This document shows positions 65 through 63,124 of a DNA stretch of 64,000 nucleotides, one piece after another. The notes beneath the pieces are model-generated. The model saw only the letters and a list, made by a program, of their open reading frames with translations. It was not told the DNA's origin and searched no databases. A program made the position numbers and the translations under genes. Within the stretch, counting starts at the first letter, position 1. Every line of letters starts with the position of its first letter. This stretch comes from Corallium rubrum (taxonomy: Eukaryota; Cnidaria; Anthozoa; Scleralcyonacea; Coralliidae): NCBI GenBank assembly GCA_964035015.1, contig OZ036007.1, positions 7,124,340-7,188,339 on the forward strand, given 5' to 3'.

Positions 65-215
65 TGGAGAGAAACGTGACTGACGAAGGGCCTTCGCTTG
101 AAATGTTAGACTCCTACGTTCTCTGTTTCAGCAGTATATCAAACCTTGCCATATTTTGATTGTTGTTCTACACTGCCTACACAGCACACTACTTTTATTA
201 CATTGTTTTGGCCTG
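65..215 (+). repeat. dispersed HHR-like repeat unit, copy a
   Basis: This is a member of the dispersed ~130-bp family also found near 11690, 12760, 13870, 22745, 29220 and 37460. It keeps CTGACGA at 80-86 and a GAAA at 100-103, then the shared tail (tacgttctctgtttc, atatttcgattg-like, cactgcctac, cagcacactac). It lies in the intron before the first INPP5F exon seen here. Confidence 0.7.
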
Positions 216-365: not shown

Positions 366-14988
<14,623 letters not shown>

Positions 14989-18735: not shown

Positions 18736-19322
18736 TATTGCACGTCTTCTTTACTTTTAACGGAAGAATAATTAGTTTTTCTCGCCCCTGCTTAGTAACA
18801 TGTGTATATATTAGCAGCAGTCTGATGTCAAACAGTCTTCATATTAAATTTCTGAAGTAAAGCCGAACTGGAACAATTATAGTAAAATATAGCATGGCAC
18901 GTTTTGGCAGAATGGCTGTATACCTTTGTCGGTTGAGTTCATTAATACTGTTCGTGGTTAAAGGCATTCCCACAAATTTTAAAAATTAATAAGTTTTACG
19001 GTATTTCGACAGTTCTTTGTTGATTTTTAATCTCCAATGTCAAGAATGAAAGTAACCGAGCACACGCTTGTTTGTTTTATGTCTTTAAGATAAAATCATT
19101 TTTCATTTGTCTACTATCGAATTTTGATTGTCAAAGAACTGCTAGCTTTGATTCAAAAACCTTCACACAATATACCCAGAAAACTTTCCTTATACCCTCG
19201 ACAACCATAAATACACAATGCTTAACGTTTTTCAAACGATCTCGCCCATGCAGACATTTTTTTGCATATTGAGTATAGTTGAAAATTCCCTGGTATAAGC
19301 TGACATGACTAAGTTTTTTCTT

Positions 19323-19550
19323 AACACTTCGAAGTCTGAAGACGAGTCATTAGTATTTTATTCTGGCTAACGCCAGACGATTTTATTCAGCACAGGGAGA
19401 GGTCCAGGCCTCAAAGTGTTAAAATCTATCTCTTTAACACTTCGAAGCCTGAAGACGAGTCATTAGTATATTTTATTCTGGCTAACGCCAGACGATTTTA
19501 TTCAGCACAGGGAGAGCTCCAGGCCTCAAAGTGTTAAAATCTATCTCTTT
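19323..19550 (+). repeat. 113-bp satellite, two copies
   Basis: Copies start at 19323 and 19436. Each begins aacacttcgaag and ends near ctcaaagtgtt, so the unit has inverted ends. It contains the hairpin tctggctaacgccaga. Five copies recur on the other strand at 42805-43346 and one at 59949. Confidence 0.85.
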
Positions 19551-20805
19551 AAGAGTGAGCACCATGAATGAACAAGGTTTGTTCCATAGTTTTTGTTTCA
19601 TAATTTTTATTTTTTGGGACAAGTTTTCAGGCTTGACGGCAAAAAAGCAGATGTATATCTCCGTCTATATTAAGTGTTTTTTTAAACTTGAAATATTTAA
19701 ATTTTAAAACGAACGAAATCATGTCAAGTGGCTGCGGACGACTACACTGTCACACATTCGCCACTCAAAAGCTGGCATGAGCAGCTTTTTGAACTACAAG
19801 GCTTTTTGTCAATGAAAAACTATGTAGGGAGACGTCACTAATATTTCAACACATTATTTTTCATTAATATTTTTGGCTTGAGATATTACATTCAGCCTTT
19901 TTTTCGAATTTACCAAAAGCAGCTTTCTTATATTATTTATTGACTTATTGATATTCCCGATAAGACGTATTTCATTAACTGCTTTATAATCTTATTCGAT
20001 TACTTTTTAAATCAACTTGGCGCTTTTCTCGTTGCCGTTAATTTATTGATGAAAGTGTATATTAGTACAGTTTCGTTCGACCCGATCACCTAGATTTATG
20101 ATCGAAATAACACTCACTATATACCACTAACATGCACAGAAGTTTCAAATTTCAAACCGCTGTCGTGACCCCTCAGGCCTCAGCGGTTTCCATGGTTAAG
20201 CAACGATCGCGTATACACACGATGCTGGAAAGTGTACATGAATTAGATATCGAGGCCAGCGTATATTGAAATGTAATATAATTTAATTGATGGCGCGTGT
20301 TTCTAAAAGACAGTGTATGTATTTATTTATTTAATATAACAACCATATATTGTCCGCCTCAAAAACAAACCAAATAGTCAACCACGCTATATATACCACT
20401 TTTATACAAACTTTTAATAAGATTGAGGGAAACGCGAAGCTGAATAAACAGGCCATTTTTTCTTTGCGGCGAAAGTGTTAAGCAATTTTTGTATAATTAT
20501 TATTTTTTTGATAATTATCTCGCAAAGCATAATAAGATATGTAGATCAACAGGCATCAAAATGAGAAAAGCTTGTATATATATATATAATATTGTAGGCG
20601 TGATCACGAGTTGACAACGGAGTGGGAATGTGAGATGGAAGGACGGAAGTTCGTTTGATTAAGGGTGTTTGTTTTTTGAAATGTGCTGGCCATTTGTGGG
20701 TATGTCAGTTTATAGTATTATATTGTCAAGGTCTTATGCTGTCATCTAAGTACACGAACTGAAGCTACTTTGTCAGTTTTGGGCGCCGAGCAGCATTGAT
20801 TGGTA
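19551..20805. other. AT-rich region upstream of the GPCR
   Basis: I see no gene, RNA or mobile element here. A short (TA)n lies near 20575-20590. The promoter of the downstream GPCR presumably lies here, but no motif singles it out. Confidence 0.5.
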
Positions 20806-21951
20806 ATGGCGGCAAACGGAAACGTTTCTTTTAACGACTCCTGCCTGTTGTTGTTTTATCAATGTAAAATTAGTATTACAGCACCCAACACCAGTATCTA
20901 CGACACACCTTGTGGAAAAGACTTTCTTAAACAATGTCACGACTCTACGAGTCCACAGGAATCACCTGCAGACGTTGAACTTCCTGTGTTTTTGATTATC
21001 ATATTTATCGTCATTGCTGTCTTCAGTTTTCTCAGTAACGTTTTTGTCTGTTTTGTCTACGTTTTAAGTCGAGAAATCAGGACAGCTAAACATTATTTTA
21101 TCGTCAACTTGGCCGTCGCAGATAGCCTGATCGCAGCTTTGGCCATTCCGTTCTTTTTAACCCAGTATATTAACGGAGCTCCGAAGACACTTTGCCAAGT
21201 TGGTTCAGTAATCGATGTTCTCTGCTGTACATTGTCTATTATTGGCTTTACTGTCATTAGCCTCGAGCGCTTCGTTGCTGTACGCTATCCTTTACGTTAC
21301 CCATCGTTTATATCACGAAAACGTTGCCTCGGAGTTGTTGCGTTTGTCTGGTTTTATTCCATTGCATTTTCACTCCTAGCTTACGTTCCAGTTGGTACTT
21401 TACACAACGACCATTGCGTTTTCTTTACTGGGTCGTATCTGGTCACCATTATATTCAGCAGTTTTCTCTTACCTCTCTTTGCCATGCTGATTATCTACGG
21501 TTGGATTTATAAAGTTGCGAAATACCAAGCCAGGCAAATGAACTACACTATCCCAAGTGGTCCTAATACTAGTGTAAAACGTGAGTTCAAGGCAGCAAAA
21601 ACTCTAACCCTTATTATCGGAGTGTTTGTCGTCTGTTGGCTTCCATTCATCGCTTACATCTTCCTGGTTGTTGTACTAGATATCTCGATATCTTCACTGC
21701 CTCTCTTCTATGCGGTACAAATCGTCCGTTATCTTAATTCTTTGGCCAATCCGTTTCTTTATGTTGGGATAAACAGAGAATTTCGTCGTAGCGCTTTACG
21801 AATCTTGAAGAGATGGACACCAAGCAGACAGAGTGGCAGTGATATAGAATCCTACTCACAAGCTACAACGGTCACTGTCTTAAGAAGGATGTCGCGAGGT
21901 CATGTGTTATCTGAGACCAACGGCGTCGCAACCGATAGTACACTTGCGTGA
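20806..21951 (+). CDS. class A (rhodopsin-like) G-protein-coupled receptor, single exon
   Basis: The start is the ATG at 20806 (MAANGNVSFNDSC), in a good context (gtaATGG). Product 381 aa. The extracellular N-terminus has NVS, NDS and NTS glycosylation sites. Seven hydrophobic segments begin near residue 60. Class A landmarks: SNVFVCFVYVL (TM1 Asn), NLAVADSLIA (TM2 Asp), LCQVGSV (TM3 Cys) with a Cys in loop 2 (NDHCVFF), SLERFVAVRYPLRY (the DRY motif is ERF), FVVCWLPFIAY (TM6 CWxP), NSLANPFLYV (NPxxY). The tail is Ser/Thr-rich. It resembles the aminergic, adenosine and melatonin-type receptors expanded in cnidarians. The ligand cannot be told from sequence. The Arg-Tyr to Arg-Phe change in DRY is mild. 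AATAAA occurs at 22151. Confidence 0.93.
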   Translation: MAANGNVSFNDSCLLLFYQCKISITAPNTSIYDTPCGKDFLKQCHDSTSPQESPADVELPVFLIIIFIVIAVFSFLSNVFVCFVYVLSREIRTAKHYFIVNLAVADSLIAALAIPFFLTQYINGAPKTLCQVGSVIDVLCCTLSIIGFTVISLERFVAVRYPLRYPSFISRKRCLGVVAFVWFYSIAFSLLAYVPVGTLHNDHCVFFTGSYLVTIIFSSFLLPLFAMLIIYGWIYKVAKYQARQMNYTIPSGPNTSVKREFKAAKTLTLIIGVFVVCWLPFIAYIFLVVVLDISISSLPLFYAVQIVRYLNSLANPFLYVGINREFRRSALRILKRWTPSRQSGSDIESYSQATTVTVLRRMSRGHVLSETNGVATDSTLA

Positions 21952-22743: not shown

Positions 22744-22852
22744 TTTTTCTTCACGTTCTCTGATGAAGGGCCTTCGCTCGAAACGTTAGTAGACTGACCC
22801 ATACGTTCTCTATTTGAGCAATATATCTAACCTTGCTATATTTCGATTGCGT
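22744..22852 (+). repeat. dispersed HHR-like unit, copy e
   Basis: This copy carries the textbook core CTGATGA at 22760-22766 and GAAA at 22780-22783, then cgttag and the usual tail (tacgttctc, atatatctaaccttgc). It lies between the GPCR and SUPT7L. Confidence 0.75.
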
Positions 22853-28939: not shown

Positions 28940-29130
28940 AGTAGTGTGCCGAGAATAGTTTTGATAATGAAATACTGACGTTTCGAGTGGAGGGCTCTCT
29001 ATTTCGTTAAATTTGTTATCAAAACTATTCTCAGCAGTTAAGGACCTTTTCACTTTCCGTCTATCTAAAACACTGCCTACACAGCACTCTACTTTTGTAC
29101 ACAACAGAAGTGCGTCGTTTGAAATGGGCC
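28940..29130 (-). repeat. second HHR-like family member with inverted ends
   Basis: gagaatagttttgataa at about 28950 pairs with ttatcaaaactattctc at about 29017. Between them the - strand reads ccactcGAAACGTCAG, that is GAAA with a GTC triplet, but the CTGANGA half has decayed. The shared cttttcactttccgtctatc tail follows. Confidence 0.55.
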
Positions 29131-29219
29131 AATGGTTATGGTTGACTTGACACACTGCTGTTTTTCGTCTTAAAAATTATCACGAACTAATTTGCATAGC
29201 AATGTGTAAACAACTTAAG

Positions 29220-29385
29220 AATCTGACGTTTCGAGCGAAGGCCCTTAGTCAGTTTCTCTTTGACGAAGGGCCTATATAGCCTCGCTCCAAACGTTAGACT
29301 CCTACGTTCTCTGTTTCGGCAGTATGCAAACCTTACTATATTTCGATTGTTATTTCAACACTGCCTACGCAGCACACTACTTTGA
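29220..29385. repeat. dispersed HHR-like units, decayed head-to-head pair, copy f
   Basis: Opposed copies meet at about 29258. The - strand core reads CTGACTA (mutated) with GAAACGTCAG; the + strand core is broken by an insertion (cctatatagcctcgctcc). The arrangement is as at 11687-11908. Confidence 0.65.
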
Positions 29386-29906
29386 TTGAACAACTTAAGG
29401 GCCATTTCACTCCATCCAAAGTCATTCACTTCAAGTGTGTGTGTGTCCTTCAGCAGAGGTACTTGATGCGGTTTTCCTGTGATGTTGTCTGTTCTGATGT
29501 TCTTCAGCTGACGCTCATTCTGACTCAAGCATCTCAGGAAACTTGCCTTCAGCATCACTCAGGTGACGCCGGTGCTTGACCAACAGAACACAAAAGAGCA
29601 TCAAGAATACCGGAAAAGACTTGTAGCAGCAGTTCCTATAAAAGCTCTCGGGAACAAAACCTTGTAATTCAATTATTTGATAACATAAAAAGAACAACTT
29701 AGAAAATAAAAGTAGAAGAATTAACCTGACCAACGCTTTGAGGCATGTTATGATTTTTATAAGTGTTTATATTATAGAGTATTTCAAGAACGAAACACGA
29801 AATGTCTGGTGTGGTTTCTAGACGTATTCTGATTTTGGTTCAAAAGGAAAGCTTTACTTATTGTTTGTTTTAGCGTGTGACCACTGGCCTAGCAATCATT
29901 ATAATG

Positions 29907-30181
29907 TTGTCAGGAATATTAAAGCCCAGCATATAATTTTAAAAAGCCCCATATTGAAAGAGACATGAGTTATTTCAAATTTTTTATTAAAACTAACGTT
30001 TCGTTGCTAATCCTGCAACATCTTCAGAGTGAATAATTATTTACAAGGTTATCTCGACTTATATGCTAATATATTTACAATAACAGGAAATGAGTAACTG
30101 AGAGAGGGGTGGAAGTGACAGTTAATAAATTACAGTGTGAAGTAACAGGTATGATAGAATGTTTTCAGTTATGTGTCAAGA
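29907..30181 (-). repeat. left inverted arm (pLTR) of the Penelope-like element
   Basis: Reverse complement of 30999-31273, identical over the stretches I compared and equal in length (275 bp). The match stops sharply at 30181/30999, where the truncated coding part begins. Confidence 0.93.
29992..30030 (-). ncRNA. hammerhead-ribozyme-like core in left PLE arm
   Basis: Mirror copy of the core at 31150-31188. tcttcag at 30021-30027 and tttc at 29999-30002 are the complements of CTGAAGA and GAAA. Confidence 0.6.
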
Positions 30182-30960
30182 ATGGCAAATTTGTAACTTC
30201 CGTTTATCGTAAACCAACGTTTACTGGGCTTTTCACAAATTTTGAAAGTTTCATACCACTTGTGTATAAAAAGGGCTTAGTAATGACTTTACTTTTTCGT
30301 TATTTTAACATTTCTTCCTCCTACACAATTTTTCACGAAGAACTAGAGAAATTTAAAAGTATCATGCTTCAAAATGGTTATCCTATCAAATTTTTAGATA
30401 GTTGTATTCGCAAATTTCTTGAAAAAATTTTTTGTCCAGCGTCTAAAATTACCATAGCACCCAAACGTATCATTTTATTTACACTTCCGTTCACCGGTCA
30501 ACACTCCCTTCAAATTCGCCAACAAATCGTTAAGCTCTTTGCTTCTGCTTTTCCACAAATTCAACTTCGTGTTGTTTTTAAACCTATTAGACGCCTTTCA
30601 AGTTTTTTCCGTTTTAAAGATCAAATTCCTTTTGCTTTAAGATCACGCGTAGTTTATAAATTTAAATGTCATGACTGTGAGTCATTGTATGTTGGTGAAA
30701 CCATTCGCCATTTACACACGCGTGCTTCTGAACACATGGGAGTTTCGGCTTACACGGGAAAGCCTCTTTCTTTGAGTTCCTGGTCTGGAGTTTTAGCACA
30801 CCACAAAAAAACCGGCCACCCTGTTTCTTTAACAGATTTTTCTATTCTAAGCTCTTCTCCTTCCAATTTTGAACTCCTTCTTAGAGAAAGTCTGCTTATT
30901 AATAAGTTAAATCCTTCACTCAACGCCAAAATCAGTTCTCTTCCTTTAAACTTATTTTGA
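30182..30960 (+). pseudogene. Penelope-like polyprotein fragment: end of reverse transcriptase plus GIY-YIG endonuclease
   Basis: The frame is open from before 30182 to the stop at 30960 (about 260 codons from the arm junction), but most of the reverse transcriptase is missing. N-terminal part: TSVYRKPTFTGLFTNFESF and NGYPIKFLDSCIRKFL, the RT thumb-to-linker region typical of animal Penelope-like elements. C-terminal part: CHDCESLYVGETIRHLHTR with ASEH, a GIY-YIG nuclease signature (LYVGxT, R, EH), with a later Glu and Asn-Lys-Leu (LLINKLNPSLN). There is no own start codon in frame at the junction. The lack of stops suggests a fairly recent insertion. Confidence 0.9.
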
Positions 30961-30998
30961 TTTATACACACGTTTTTCTTTATATTTTTCTATACTTG

Positions 30999-31273
30999 TC
31001 TTGACACATAACTGAAAACATTCTATCATACCTGTTACTTCACACTGTAATTTATTAACTGTCACTTCCACCCCTCTCTCAGTTACTCATTTCCTGTTAT
31101 TGTAAATATATTAGCATATAAGTCGAGATAACCTTGTAAATAATTATTCACTCTGAAGATGTTGCAGGATTAGCAACGAAACGTTAGTTTTAATAAAAAA
31201 TTTGAAATAACTCATGTCTCTTTCAATATGGGGCTTTTTAAAATTATATGCTGGGCTTTAATATTCCTGACAA
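30999..31273 (+). repeat. right arm (pLTR / 3' region) of the Penelope-like element
   Basis: It starts 39 bp after the stop codon at 30960, contains the hammerhead-like core at 31150-31188, and ends cctgacaa before the 33-bp extension. Confidence 0.93.
31150..31188 (+). ncRNA. hammerhead-ribozyme-like core in right PLE arm
   Basis: ACT, CTGAAGA (31153-31159), T, stem-loop GTTGC-AGGATTA-GCAAC, GAAA (31178-31181), CGTT, AGT. Stem I pairs ACT with AGT and stem II has 5 bp. Hammerhead motifs are established in Penelope-like pLTRs. Stem III is minimal (AC/GT). Confidence 0.62.
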
Positions 31274-31469
31274 GATTACGCTTTCCGCCTGGTTCGTCTA
31301 TTGCTACAATCATTATAATGACTTGTATATTGGCTTGGTTTGAGCTGTGAACTTGAAAAGACTTATTCTATATGAAAGGTAAGTACCATAGAATAAATGT
31401 CATATTTAGTATAGAGACTAGAAAGTTGTTCAGGGACAAGTCGTTTAAAAGCTGATTTTTCCTAATCCT

Positions 31470-31680
31470 GGATTGAAAGTTTAAAAGTGCCAATTTTTTG
31501 ATTATTTCATCCCTTGACGAAGTCTGAATAGGGCTTTGCTCAAAACGTAAGTATTCCGTTAAAATTGTAGCAGTTGATCATTTTACTTTGCTCTATCCAA
31601 AACACAGCACTCTAGTTTTCAAAACTTAATTGGTTATGTTTTGAGATTGTTTGGCCAATCGTTTGAAACTCGTGTGTATA
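31470..31680. repeat. decayed HHR-like unit, second family
   Basis: cccttgacgaagtctgaata, gggctttgctcaaaacgtaa and cattttactttgctctatcc correspond to the core and tail of the 28940 family, heavily mutated. Confidence 0.45.
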
Positions 31681-36097: not shown

Positions 36098-36612
36098 CGC
36101 ACTCGACTTAGTCAAAATCCAACCCTTAAAGTTCCTCTATGTAAATCCAGGACATTCCAAGATTCTTACTTCAACCGCATAGTCAAACTATGGAATTCAA
36201 CCTGTAAAATACTCCCTACCACTAGTTTTTCTAGTCTTTCCTTTTTTAAAAGTTCCCTCAAAGAAATGTACTATAATTTAAGTTACTCAATTTTTCATGT
36301 AGATCTGCTGTGCACGTGGTCCCTCGTACGTGATTGCCCCTGTCATAGGTCGTAAACTCAGTTGGGTTTTTATTTATTTTTATTTTTACGGGGAGTGCCC
36401 TGCATGGGACTTAGTGTCCCGTTCGTACTCTTCCCATTTGGGTTATTTTTATTTTATTATTATTATTATTATTTTTATATATTTTTTTTTGTTAATTTTT
36501 TTTTTGTTCTTGTTTTGTTTTTTGGTTTGTTTTTGTTAATATAACATTTGATCATTGTAATTTTGTTAGTAGATAACCCAATAAAGTTGTTAAAAAAAAA
36601 AGAAAAAAAAAG
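36098..36612 (+). mobile_element. LINE 3' fragment (ORF2 C-terminus, 3' UTR, A-rich tail)
   Basis: In frame to the stop at 36353-36355: SQNPTLKVPLCKSRTFQDSY then FNRIVKLWNSTCKILPTT and ending CTWSLVRDCPCHRS. This is the C-terminal signature of a non-LTR retrotransposon ORF2 common in invertebrates. The 3' UTR contains a T-rich run, then cccaataaagttgttaaaaa and an A-rich tail near 36590-36612. The copy is 5'-truncated. Confidence 0.8.
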
Positions 36613-37457
36613 AAACGTTAAACTGGCCTATGACGTCCCCTGTTTCCGCAGTATACTCAACCTTACTATTTAGCCTAAATTCTGAAAAACAACACTGACG
36701 AGTGTTGGATATCGCTTCTCAAACAAATCTATATTTCAAGAGAAAATCGACATATAGAAATTTCCTAAATTTGACTACCGTCTTTCTCCGATTTCTAAAT
36801 ACTGATAAAATGTCTATCCCTTTTGAAGTTTCCTCATGAATTATAAATGAGTCGGTATTGAGCCTGTTTCCAGTCATTTCGCCTTAAGAAGAGTGTTTCC
36901 AGTTCAACTCTAGCTACGAAACAGCGTAGATTTTCTTCTGACTCCAGTCTCCTCCTGTTGGCTTTGCCTGACTTACAATATGGCGGCTGCTATCGTGAAA
37001 TCCTTTCTATACTACTACGAGTCTAGAGATCAGTGGCCATGAGTGATCTACTGATAAGAAACTCTTTCTAGATTGAAAGATGTGTTTTTGGCAAGTAGAA
37101 TTAGTTGTTTTTCCAAGCAGATGTTTTAGCTGTCACAAAACCTTTTAGACGTTTTATTTTCTTTATGTCTGCAACTGTTTTTTAATTTGTTTTTTTAAGT
37201 TCAACTTACAAATAGCTTGCCATAAAACCCCATTCTATTGTTCTGCCACGCCAGTCAGTCCTAGGCCCTAGAACCTTGCGCGGTCAAACGCAATGATTTA
37301 TGGGATCGATTGAAGTTAAACTTAGCTCAGCCGGTAACCACTAAAGACTTCTGCTTTCCTATTGGTTAAAATTTCGCGCGTTTTCTGCAATCATCATAAG
37401 TGGATTTAGCCCTGGCCATATTTATTTTGAAATTGAGCTTCCAAGGTTAAGCCTAGT

Positions 37458-37590
37458 GCAATGAAAGTAGCGTGCTGCGTAGGCAGTGTAGAAACAACAA
37501 TCGAAATATAGTAAGGTTAGATATACTGCCGAAACAGAGAACGTAGGAGTCTAACGTTTCGAGCGAAGGCCTTTCGTCAGAGAGAAACGT
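37458..37590 (-). repeat. dispersed HHR-like unit, copy g
   Basis: A full-length copy: agtagcgtgctgcgtaggca through gaaacagagaacgtaggag to tcgtcagagagaaacg. The - strand core is CTGACGA (37574-37580) with GAAA at 37557-37560; stem II carries one mismatch. It directly abuts a 5S-derived SINE. Confidence 0.8.
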
Positions 37591-42804: not shown

Positions 42805-43346
42805 ACTTTGAGGCCTGGACCTCTGAATAAAATCGTCTGGCGTTAGCCAGAGTAAAATACTAAAGACTCGTCTTCAGACTTCGAAGTGTTAAAGAGATAG
42901 ATTTTAACACTTTGAGGCCTGGACCTCTCCCTGTGTTGAATAAAATCGTCTGGCGTTAGCCAGAATAAAATACTAAAGACTCGTCTTCAGGCTTCGAAGT
43001 GTTAAAGAGATAGATTTTAACACTTTGAGGCCTGGACCTCTCCCTGTGTTGAATAAAATCGTCTGGCGTTAGCCAGAATAAAATACTAAAGACTCGTCGT
43101 CAGACTTCAAAGTGTTAAAGAGATAGGTTTTAACACTTTGAGGCCCGGACCTCTCCCTGTGCTGAATAAAATCGTCTGGCGTTAGCCAGAATAAAATACT
43201 AAAGACTCGTCTTCAGACTTCAAAGTGTTAAAGAGATAGGTTTTGACACTTTGAGGCCTGGACCTCTCCCTGTGCTGAATAAAATCGTCGTGCGTTAGCC
43301 AGAGTAAAATACTAAAGACTCGTTTTCAGGCTTCAAAGTGTTAAAG
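42805..43346 (-). repeat. 113-bp satellite, five copies
   Basis: tttgagg starts at 42911, 43024, 43137 and 43250, exactly 113 bp apart, with a shortened first copy at 42805. It is the reverse orientation of the family at 19323-19550. Each unit holds the hairpin tctggcgttagccaga. Confidence 0.9.

Positions 43347-46864: not shown

Positions 46865-63124
<16,260 letters not shown>

Follow-up and report, generated by a model that had tools for sequence, protein, structure and literature searches.

A Penelope-like element and dispersed units in the window

The 64,000-nucleotide stretch of Corallium rubrum analysed here (contig OZ036007.1, positions 7,124,340 to 7,188,339 of the forward strand; hereafter the window) holds an insertion of a Penelope-like element (PLE) together with dispersed units of ~131-135 nt, and both carry motifs with the layout of a minimal hammerhead ribozyme. 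The PLE insertion is composed of an inverted 3'-terminal arm, a 5'-truncated open reading frame (ORF) and a 3'-terminal arm with a tail, and has a 14-nt target-site duplication (TSD) on either side. Its parts are as follows.

29893..29906, no strand: left TSD of the PLE, CAATCATTATAATG
29907..31306, plus strand: PLE insertion
29907..30181, minus strand: inverted arm without tail, identical to 30999-31273
30094..30960, plus strand: 5'-truncated PLE ORF, stop to stop, with a GIY-YIG-like C-terminus
30999..31273, plus strand: sense 3' arm
31274..31306, plus strand: 33-nt tail, on the right arm only; in full-length relatives this sequence lies within the ORF start
31307..31320, no strand: right TSD of the PLE, CAATCATTATAATG

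The two arms form a perfect inverted repeat of 275 nt; an extent of 280 nt was rejected, its final 5 positions falling within the TSD with one mismatch there. PLEs are recognised by repeats in direct or inverted order, an optional tail of 30-40 nt and a TSD, and all of these are present: the insertion has the PLE plan of inverted pseudo-long terminal repeats (pLTRs), a tail on one of them and short TSDs. The first ~30 codons of the ORF lie in the inverted arm. Its GIY-YIG-like region scores 19.9 bits in Pfam (E 9e-4), below the cut-off of 22.6, and all three PLE proteins compared stay under the cut-off (E 9e-4, 0.015 and 0.057); the motif LYVGET or LYIGET can be recognised in PLE proteins by eye. 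Structure prediction for the truncated window copy gave a mean predicted local distance difference test (pLDDT) score of 40.8, and a PDB sequence search with this ORF returned no match.

Relatives are found throughout the host assembly (474,352,983 bases, 312 contigs), in which the PLE ORF has at least 146 scored matches, most of them 93-100% identical and one group 65-69%. Full-length relatives have ORFs of 838-840 amino acids and, in copies L061 and L041, an RVT_1 domain above the Pfam cut-off; the window copy is truncated. One family, F4, forms a head-to-tail array with a period of 2,729-2,731 nt. The hammerhead motif stands directly upstream of the PLE ORF. One PLE C-terminal match (G000:C15:14714109-14714726) lies in an open frame of 2,724 amino acids, far above the PLE ORF length, and by eye a head-to-head PLE pair is nested in a dispersed unit with the TSD CTTACTATATT (L061, G000:C8:26440616-26446007).

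The dispersed units carry the ribozyme motif at their 5' end. A 131-nt unit used as query has 12 matches in the window with E no higher than 10, including two weak ones (E 0.33 and E 2). The eight copies that keep the core region are those of A, C, D and E and the head-to-head pairs of B and F.

80..200, plus strand: unit D with tail, begins at the core
11690..11818, minus strand: unit B with tail, core 11781-11814 intact, TSD 11676-11689 / 11903-11916
11819..11902, plus strand: inverted partner of unit B without tail, core 11819-11849 without the stem I 5' strand
12755..12883, no strand: decayed head-to-head unit pair G, tailed arm 12759-12829 (minus), other arm without tail
13866..13996, minus strand: unit A with tail, core 13958-13991 intact
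22752..22850, plus strand: unit E without tail, core 22757-22790
29069..29098, plus strand: tail-only unit fragment (nhmmer E 0.33, blastn E 1.3e-4)
29220..29252, minus strand: short inverted partner of unit F, core substitution at G8
29253..29388, plus strand: unit F with tail, substitutions at C3 and G12, TSD 29209-29219 / 29389-29399
36612..36671, plus strand: remnant of a decayed unit, comprising its middle and the core's 3' end
37460..37590, minus strand: unit C with tail, core 37550-37583, first stem II pair mismatched

Unit copies have two alternative 3' ends ~38 nt apart, namely ...TTCGATTG without the tail and ...CTACTTTTATTA with it. A decayed unit-like motif, CTGAATAGGGCTTTGCTCAAAACGTAAG, is also seen at 31518-31560, shortly 3' of the PLE, and a second relic, CACTCGAAACGTCAG, near 28983 on the minus strand.

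Hammerhead cores of the PLE arms and the units

The span 29992-31188, to which a preliminary description of this DNA had drawn attention, runs from outer edge to outer edge of two cores, one per PLE arm. Both were located by a descriptor scan and are self-hits of the covariance model presented below.

29992..30030, minus strand: minimal type I hammerhead core, left arm
31150..31188, plus strand: minimal type I hammerhead core, right arm, predicted cut 31185/31186

According to that description, the PLE and unit motifs share the layout CTGANGA, stem-loop, GAAA, CGTT, with stem I changed on both sides (TCT/AGA to ACT/AGT) and with pairing of both stem II versions, GGGC/GCTC and GTTGC/GCAAC. All of this is seen in the window. 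The PLE motif reads ACT, CTGAAGA, T, GTTGC, a loop of 7, GCAAC, GAAACGTT, AGT, and the unit motif TCT, CTGACGA, A, GGGC, CTTC, GCTC, GAAACGTT, AGA. A strict descriptor, which demands the core, 3 bp in stem I, 4 bp or more in stem II and two pairs in stem III, matches 4 sites in the window and 0 in 300 dinucleotide shuffles, and the core region is kept in 8 unit copies. Stem III of the window motifs is a two-pair ACGT without a loop, and the cleavage triplet is GTT in 7 of the 8 units and GTC in the remaining one.

The features that the same description ascribed to all copies, namely the unpaired base before stem II, the loopless 2-bp stem III and the predominance of GTT, are present; the stems and the core vary among the units. 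Two of the eight units have core substitutions (29255- and 29257+), and three copies that start at the core (11816+, 77+ and 29255-) lack the 5' strand of stem I. Single mismatches affect the first stem II pair of 37550- and the third stem I pair of 22757+, which is absent. With regard to chance, stem I is formed by 5.9% of random 3-mers. Since stem II, with the core fixed, forms in 2.3% (PLE) or 5.9% (unit) of shuffled intervals, the two window families alone are thin evidence of pairing.

Covariation among genomic copies

The core pattern has 10,653 matches in the host genome, compared with 9 for a reversed control pattern. The search pattern fixed the core, and therefore the counts do not bear on core conservation; kinship among the sequences, in addition, inflates covariation counts. 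Eight PLE-type motifs were chosen by hand (F1-F4, L099, L103, L105 and L110), leaving out L098, which is near-identical to L110, as well as L088 and L102. In their alignment, standard pairs fill 98.4% of pair cells, both sides are changed in 5 of 8 pairs (11 cells), and slid registers are paired to 22-66%. The alignment is unmatched by any of 500 shuffles in its paired share, its 11 changed cells and its covariation score; 4 of 500 reach 5 changed pairs and 336 of 500 reach the number of further pair types.

For stem I, we compared 33 distinct intervals from all fetched loci, one context each and decayed ones included. Pair 2.3/1.3 is formed in 29 of them (A-T 17, T-A 10, G-C 1, G-T 1), compared with 16.8 on average in 5,000 permutations, none of which reaches this number. 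Pair 2.4/1.4 is formed in 12 of the 33 against a mean of 7.1, a count reached by 69 of 5,000 permutations. Stem II was assessed in 31 distinct intervals (from the first 100 listed places, plus two others) and has a mean of 3.29 bp, compared with 1.24 in shuffled intervals (largest of 2,000: 1.9) and 1.83 with the halves swapped (largest 2.77). In 21 of these intervals stem II has at least 3 pairs, preceded by an unpaired base in all but one (20 of 21); the other 10 intervals have fewer than 3.

A covariance model built from the eight PLE motifs ranks four dispersed units as the best non-self matches in the window, at rough E values of 1.4e-4 to 1.6e-3. A fifth unit has E 0.43, and the two PLE matches are self-hits. 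Stems I and II are conserved by compensatory change. Covariation across genomic copies, on which the preliminary description had made its proposed RNA fold partly depend, was found in the eight-motif, stem I and stem II tests alike, so that evidence that is thin for two window families is no longer so in the genome-wide motif sample.

All comparative evidence comes from the host genome, because a scan with the PLE-type motif pattern outside it gave 0 matches and two PLE protein scans outside it gave no relative. An IMG/VR scan with a broad pattern yielded 9 loci, none resembling the window units in the stretches inspected, and one GTDB match lies in what appears by eye to be protein-coding DNA of a Treponema metagenome-assembled genome. 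Five of the nine IMG/VR loci, the phage contigs L004 and L006-L009, carry CTGANGA-stem-GAAACGTGAG motifs that look type I-like with a long stem III by eye; these five have no Rfam match at gathering score.

Insertion footprints

The 3' ends of PLEs were surveyed in 68 distinct 3' regions with a core. Ends of family F1 fall 117-125 nt (18 regions) or 145-157 nt (20) after C3 of the core, with 2 others and 3 regions that run on. F2 has 3 ends at each of two sites, F3 has 6 short (95-113) and 4 long (140-153) ends, and F4 has one at each site and one other, while the 6 remaining F2-F4 regions run on. Among 18 automatically paired head-to-head insertions, 12 pair a long arm with a short one, in 2 the partner of the long arm is shorter still, 1 consists of two short arms and 3 are unclassifiable. 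When the outermost arms were determined by hand, all 16 listed pairs combined a long with a shorter arm; this list leaves out the short/short pair and the unclassifiable C53 pair.

A search of the host genome with the unit gave 1,430 first-look candidates, the best 40 of which were scored, with 58 matches. Footprints were read from 30 fetched loci chosen by score. They represent 27 distinct insertions and include window unit A. The main copy of each locus begins within reference positions 1-5 and has the tail at its end; full length and a tail are to be expected from this choice. The six window insertions, which were not chosen in this way, start at positions 1, 2, 4, 4, 5 and 12. Inverted partners occur in 20 of the 30 rows (four of these rows being one duplicated insertion), none with a tail, and end at 85-96, apart from two rows at 107-108 in which the alignment probably overran.

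The PLE and units B, F and G have TSDs of 9-14 nt; unit A lies in a simple repeat, and no TSD was seen at units C, D and E. In 16 of the 30 fetched rows (13 of the 27 distinct insertions) the two flanks have a word of 9 nt or more in common, compared with 19 of 2,000 random 40-nt pairs. Close neighbours among 85 unit matches in 43 sequences, some overlapping, are head-to-head in 30 cases, tail-to-tail in 1 and on the same strand in 0. The units are thereby marked by a fixed 5' end, an optional tail of ~38 nt and TSDs in about half of the insertions, and their head-to-head pairs join one tailed to one tailless arm, as in the PLE. With PLE-type ends, head-to-head pairs and TSDs at a length too short for an enzyme, they bear the insertion marks of PLEs, which makes mobilisation of short elements by PLE machinery their most likely origin.

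Other unit families in the host genome (L108 and L104, with fragments L100, L107 and L109) have a GGCAGT-like stretch after the core, and their long copies have ACTGCC plus a GCAGCAC-like tail that could pair with this stretch. The head-to-head pair at 11771-11859 of the window forms a long hairpin that scores 40.9 bits against Rfam mir-2041 (cut-off 70), whose printed consensus includes GAAACGUUAGAG. An identity of the inverted pair as mir-2041 or mir-242 was rejected, the sub-threshold scores being attributed to the long hairpin as such; mir-2041-like hairpins may originate from inverted PLE-type inserts.

Position of a putative promoter

Upstream of the right-arm core lies a putative promoter element.

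31117..31121, plus strand: candidate TATA box with its first base 36 nt 5' of hammerhead C3; initiator-like TCACT immediately precedes the core

Of 16 PLE-type rows, 11 have a TATAA or TATAT with its first base 33-41 nt before C3 (8 of them at -36), and by eye TCACT stands directly 5' of the core in 9 of the 16; the rows are distinct intervals, several of them from one family. A TATA at -36 to -41 is kept in 5 of 61 unit contexts, from the two loci L073 and L117, and that of L117 lies inside a palindrome. The usual 5' end of the units (C3 minus 7 to 11) falls ~25-34 nt after the TATA. Taken with usual promoter spacing, the positions of the TATA and the initiator-like bases suggest that PLE transcripts start at about the first stem I bases, in which case TCACT in the PLE and CACGTTTC in the unit would be the expected starts. 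The L117 locus (150-560) is a complex nested unit in which two palindrome copies with TATATAA stand between head-to-head units, and these palindromes could possibly serve as a two-way promoter.

A model of the PLE hammerheads and its alternatives

We consider it probable that PLE hammerheads and PLE-mobilised non-autonomous units together account for the observations. The motifs would be minimal type I hammerhead ribozymes of the PLE kind, with an extra unpaired nucleotide between A9 and stem II and with cleavage predicted from their sequences. Transcription of the PLE from the TATA box would start at the first stem I bases of the ribozyme. The units would be short non-autonomous elements with the PLE layout, a 5' ribozyme and alternative 3' ends ~38 nt apart, and their footprints along with published PLE biochemistry point to spreading in trans by the PLE reverse transcriptase (RT)-endonuclease. 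This enzyme would cut both target strands, cDNA would start at one of two internal RNA sites, and copying, often on both strands, would give rise to head-to-head pairs. The hammerhead would most likely fold only with a stem III supplied by a partner (ACGU with ACGU) or with bound PLE protein; cleavage would then split tandem or read-through transcripts into units, and the inserted copies seem to derive from uncut RNA.

A doubtful extension of this model places the promoter start at the first bases of the ribozyme, so that every transcript would be tipped by a hammerhead of ~40 nt and the RNA would be a two-state switch. In one state, hairpin-locked, capped and uncut RNA would serve as mRNA and cDNA template; in the other, a hammerhead triggered by protein or dimerization would remove the capped tip. 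The 135-nt unit might then be the smallest complete template, comprising a promoter-set 5' end, the ribozyme and two RT start sites.

Several results weigh against easy ribozyme activity and, in part, against the mobilisation model. Left unconstrained, the unit, F3 and F4 are predicted to adopt, at minimum energy, a longer hairpin in which CTGANG pairs with CGTYAG ahead of stem II. For the unit, this hairpin has -14.7 kcal/mol compared with -6.3 for a fold with hammerhead stems I and II; for F1, the free fold has -7.9 kcal/mol and the fold with the core held unpaired -5.6. A double-hammerhead dimer reaches -8.7 (PLE) or -5.7 (unit) compared with -13.0 or -22.6 for two free monomers, as computed with a fold model (Vienna) in which tertiary contacts and protein count for nothing. 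Of the 10,653 motifs, 10,579 have C or T at position 17 and 74 have A or G; the hammerhead tolerates A here, so that this position is more restricted than a hammerhead requires. Rfam hammerhead models, proposed earlier as a check, gave no match to the motifs, a negative obtained without a verified positive control. No window unit starts at the predicted cut site (position 40 being the first base after the cut), so cleavage leaves no mark on the inserts, and by eye the PLE and unit tails do not clearly resemble each other in sequence, so that they point to no particular mobilising PLE. Two candidate traces of cleavage were rejected. Cleaved RNA as template had been read from short inverted arms (BLAST rows, q2-40), the ends of which on realignment coincide with the no-tail site, and an L117 stretch ending exactly at the cut site is better explained, by eye, by a deletion between two ACGTT repeats.

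The free folds of the unit, F3 and F4 would suit a mere irregular hairpin, built from CTGANG/CGTYAG and stem II, that binds a protein or the RT and resembles a hammerhead incidentally; the nearly invariant pyrimidine at position 17 also pairs with G5 in this hairpin, and PLE insertion in vitro proceeds without need for ribozyme activity according to PMC11167929 (this and the other papers cited being represented here by portions of their text). We nevertheless regard this as improbable. Stem I covaries in the hammerhead register in 29 of 33 motifs, whereas the hairpin pair 2.1/1.3 is formed in only 12 of 33, and in longer context the free folds of F1 and F2 differ from the competing hairpin. 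Moreover, C3-A6, G8, A9 and G12-A14 are the same in PLE and unit motifs with different stems, though they were fixed by the search pattern. The idea that the stem I change would suit the competing hairpin as well was rejected, as their registers differ and are separated by the 33-motif count.

As to the units, it is possible, though we lean against it, that they are 3'-terminal pieces, from hammerhead to tail, of an unseen autonomous PLE family that are 5'-truncated at a strong stop. Their layout equals a PLE end, a longer TATA-bearing form exists (in the palindrome of L117 and in L073), and the palindrome resembles those at pLTR 5' ends (PMC3846280). However, all six window insertions tested start at unit positions 1-12, and the unit search gave as many as 1,430 first-look candidates. 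Retrozymes, i.e., tandem hammerhead repeats processed into circular RNAs, would agree with the small size, the TSDs and the co-occurrence with PLEs (PMC7229834), but we hold them to be quite improbable, slightly more so than the hairpin, given the 30 head-to-head and 0 same-strand close neighbours and given units that lack the usual stem III and canonical loop contacts; head-to-tail tandem units with canonical type I hammerheads were not found among the 85 unit matches in 43 sequences. Most remote of all are miniature inverted-repeat transposable element (MITE)-like DNA transposons: the head-to-head pairs do resemble terminal inverted repeats with TSDs, but arm lengths differ at fixed sites, single copies are common, TSD length varies (9-14 nt) and the pattern is the same as that of the PLE.

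Relation to known systems

The primary paper on minimal type I hammerheads of PLEs and Terminons is reportedly that of Cervera and de la Pena from 2014. Such hammerheads in PLE repeats, dispersed in thousands and possibly acting as dimers, are described in PMC7761336 and PMC7229834, in line with the preliminary description, which had taken hammerhead motifs in PLE repeats as established; their role is called a mystery in the same two papers. The motifs studied here share with them the core, the near-absent stem III, type I topology, the location in PLE repeats and dispersal in thousands in animal genomes. They differ in the near-constant unpaired base between A9 and stem II, which the portions of these two papers leave unmentioned, and in that one dispersed family carries PLE insertion footprints.

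Poseidon of Anolis carolinensis (PAc; PMC11167929) likewise has a ribozyme near its ORF start, two internal RT start sites that correspond to an optional 30-40-bp tail, and cutting and extension of both strands. The two end sites found here match the two RT start sites of this PLE, whose protein cuts and extends both strands. The PAc ORF begins at stem II, whereas here the large ORF starts 74 nt after C3 (F1 copy L061); long and short head-to-head arms predominate here, with no such description for PAc in the available part of the paper. Cleavage by the Anolis ribozyme required its protein, insertion was unaffected by ribozyme mutations, and self-cleavage of PLE hammerheads had been seen earlier at 3-25 mM Mg2+ (PMC11167929).

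Penelope elements of Adineta vaga (PMC3846280) share the inverted pLTRs, a 31-bp tail on one of them, TSDs of 8-10 bp, a TATA with a TCACT initiator-like motif, a pLTR over the ORF start, and sequences moved in trans, including a trans-mobilised gene. The main text of that paper has 0 mentions of 'hammerhead' or 'non-autonomous', and its available portions describe no ~135-nt satellite family, unlike what is seen here. Metazoan non-LTR retrozymes (PMC7229834) are also small non-autonomous type I hammerhead repeats with a PLE as suspected helper, but form tandem arrays, many with canonical tertiary contacts, whereas the motifs here are minimal and single or head-to-head. The plus-strand hammerhead of Chrysanthemum chlorotic mottle viroid (PMC3705267) is self-cleaving with an unpaired A right after A9, although a viroid in a plant host represents a different biology.

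Minimal PLE hammerheads including dispersed ones, the one-sided tail and PLE trans-mobilisation are thus already known. Apparent additions are the near-constant unpaired base before stem II, the identity of the units and a TATA that would set the transcript start at the ribozyme. No description of ~135-nt hammerhead units as PLE-moved elements, or of a transcript start coinciding with the ribozyme, was recognised among the titles, abstract openings and passages surveyed, with most subscription papers outside the survey, which is weak evidence of novelty. The genome gives a concrete identity to one dispersed hammerhead family, namely short elements with PLE insertion footprints, and offers many motif versions for covariation. 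The transcript tip provides a testable idea for the position of the ribozyme, and the near-identical F1 copies and the tandem F4 array are material for biochemistry.

Other features of the window

The stretches 19321-19552 and 42823-43346 appear by eye to belong to one tandem repeat family of ~113-115 nt on opposite strands. Also by eye, 20800-21951 is a seven-helix receptor-like ORF and 52011-57325 contains immunoglobulin-domain exons with a transmembrane stretch downstream, both likely host genes. A tRNA-like sequence above the Rfam cut-off lies at 57481-57552 on the minus strand.

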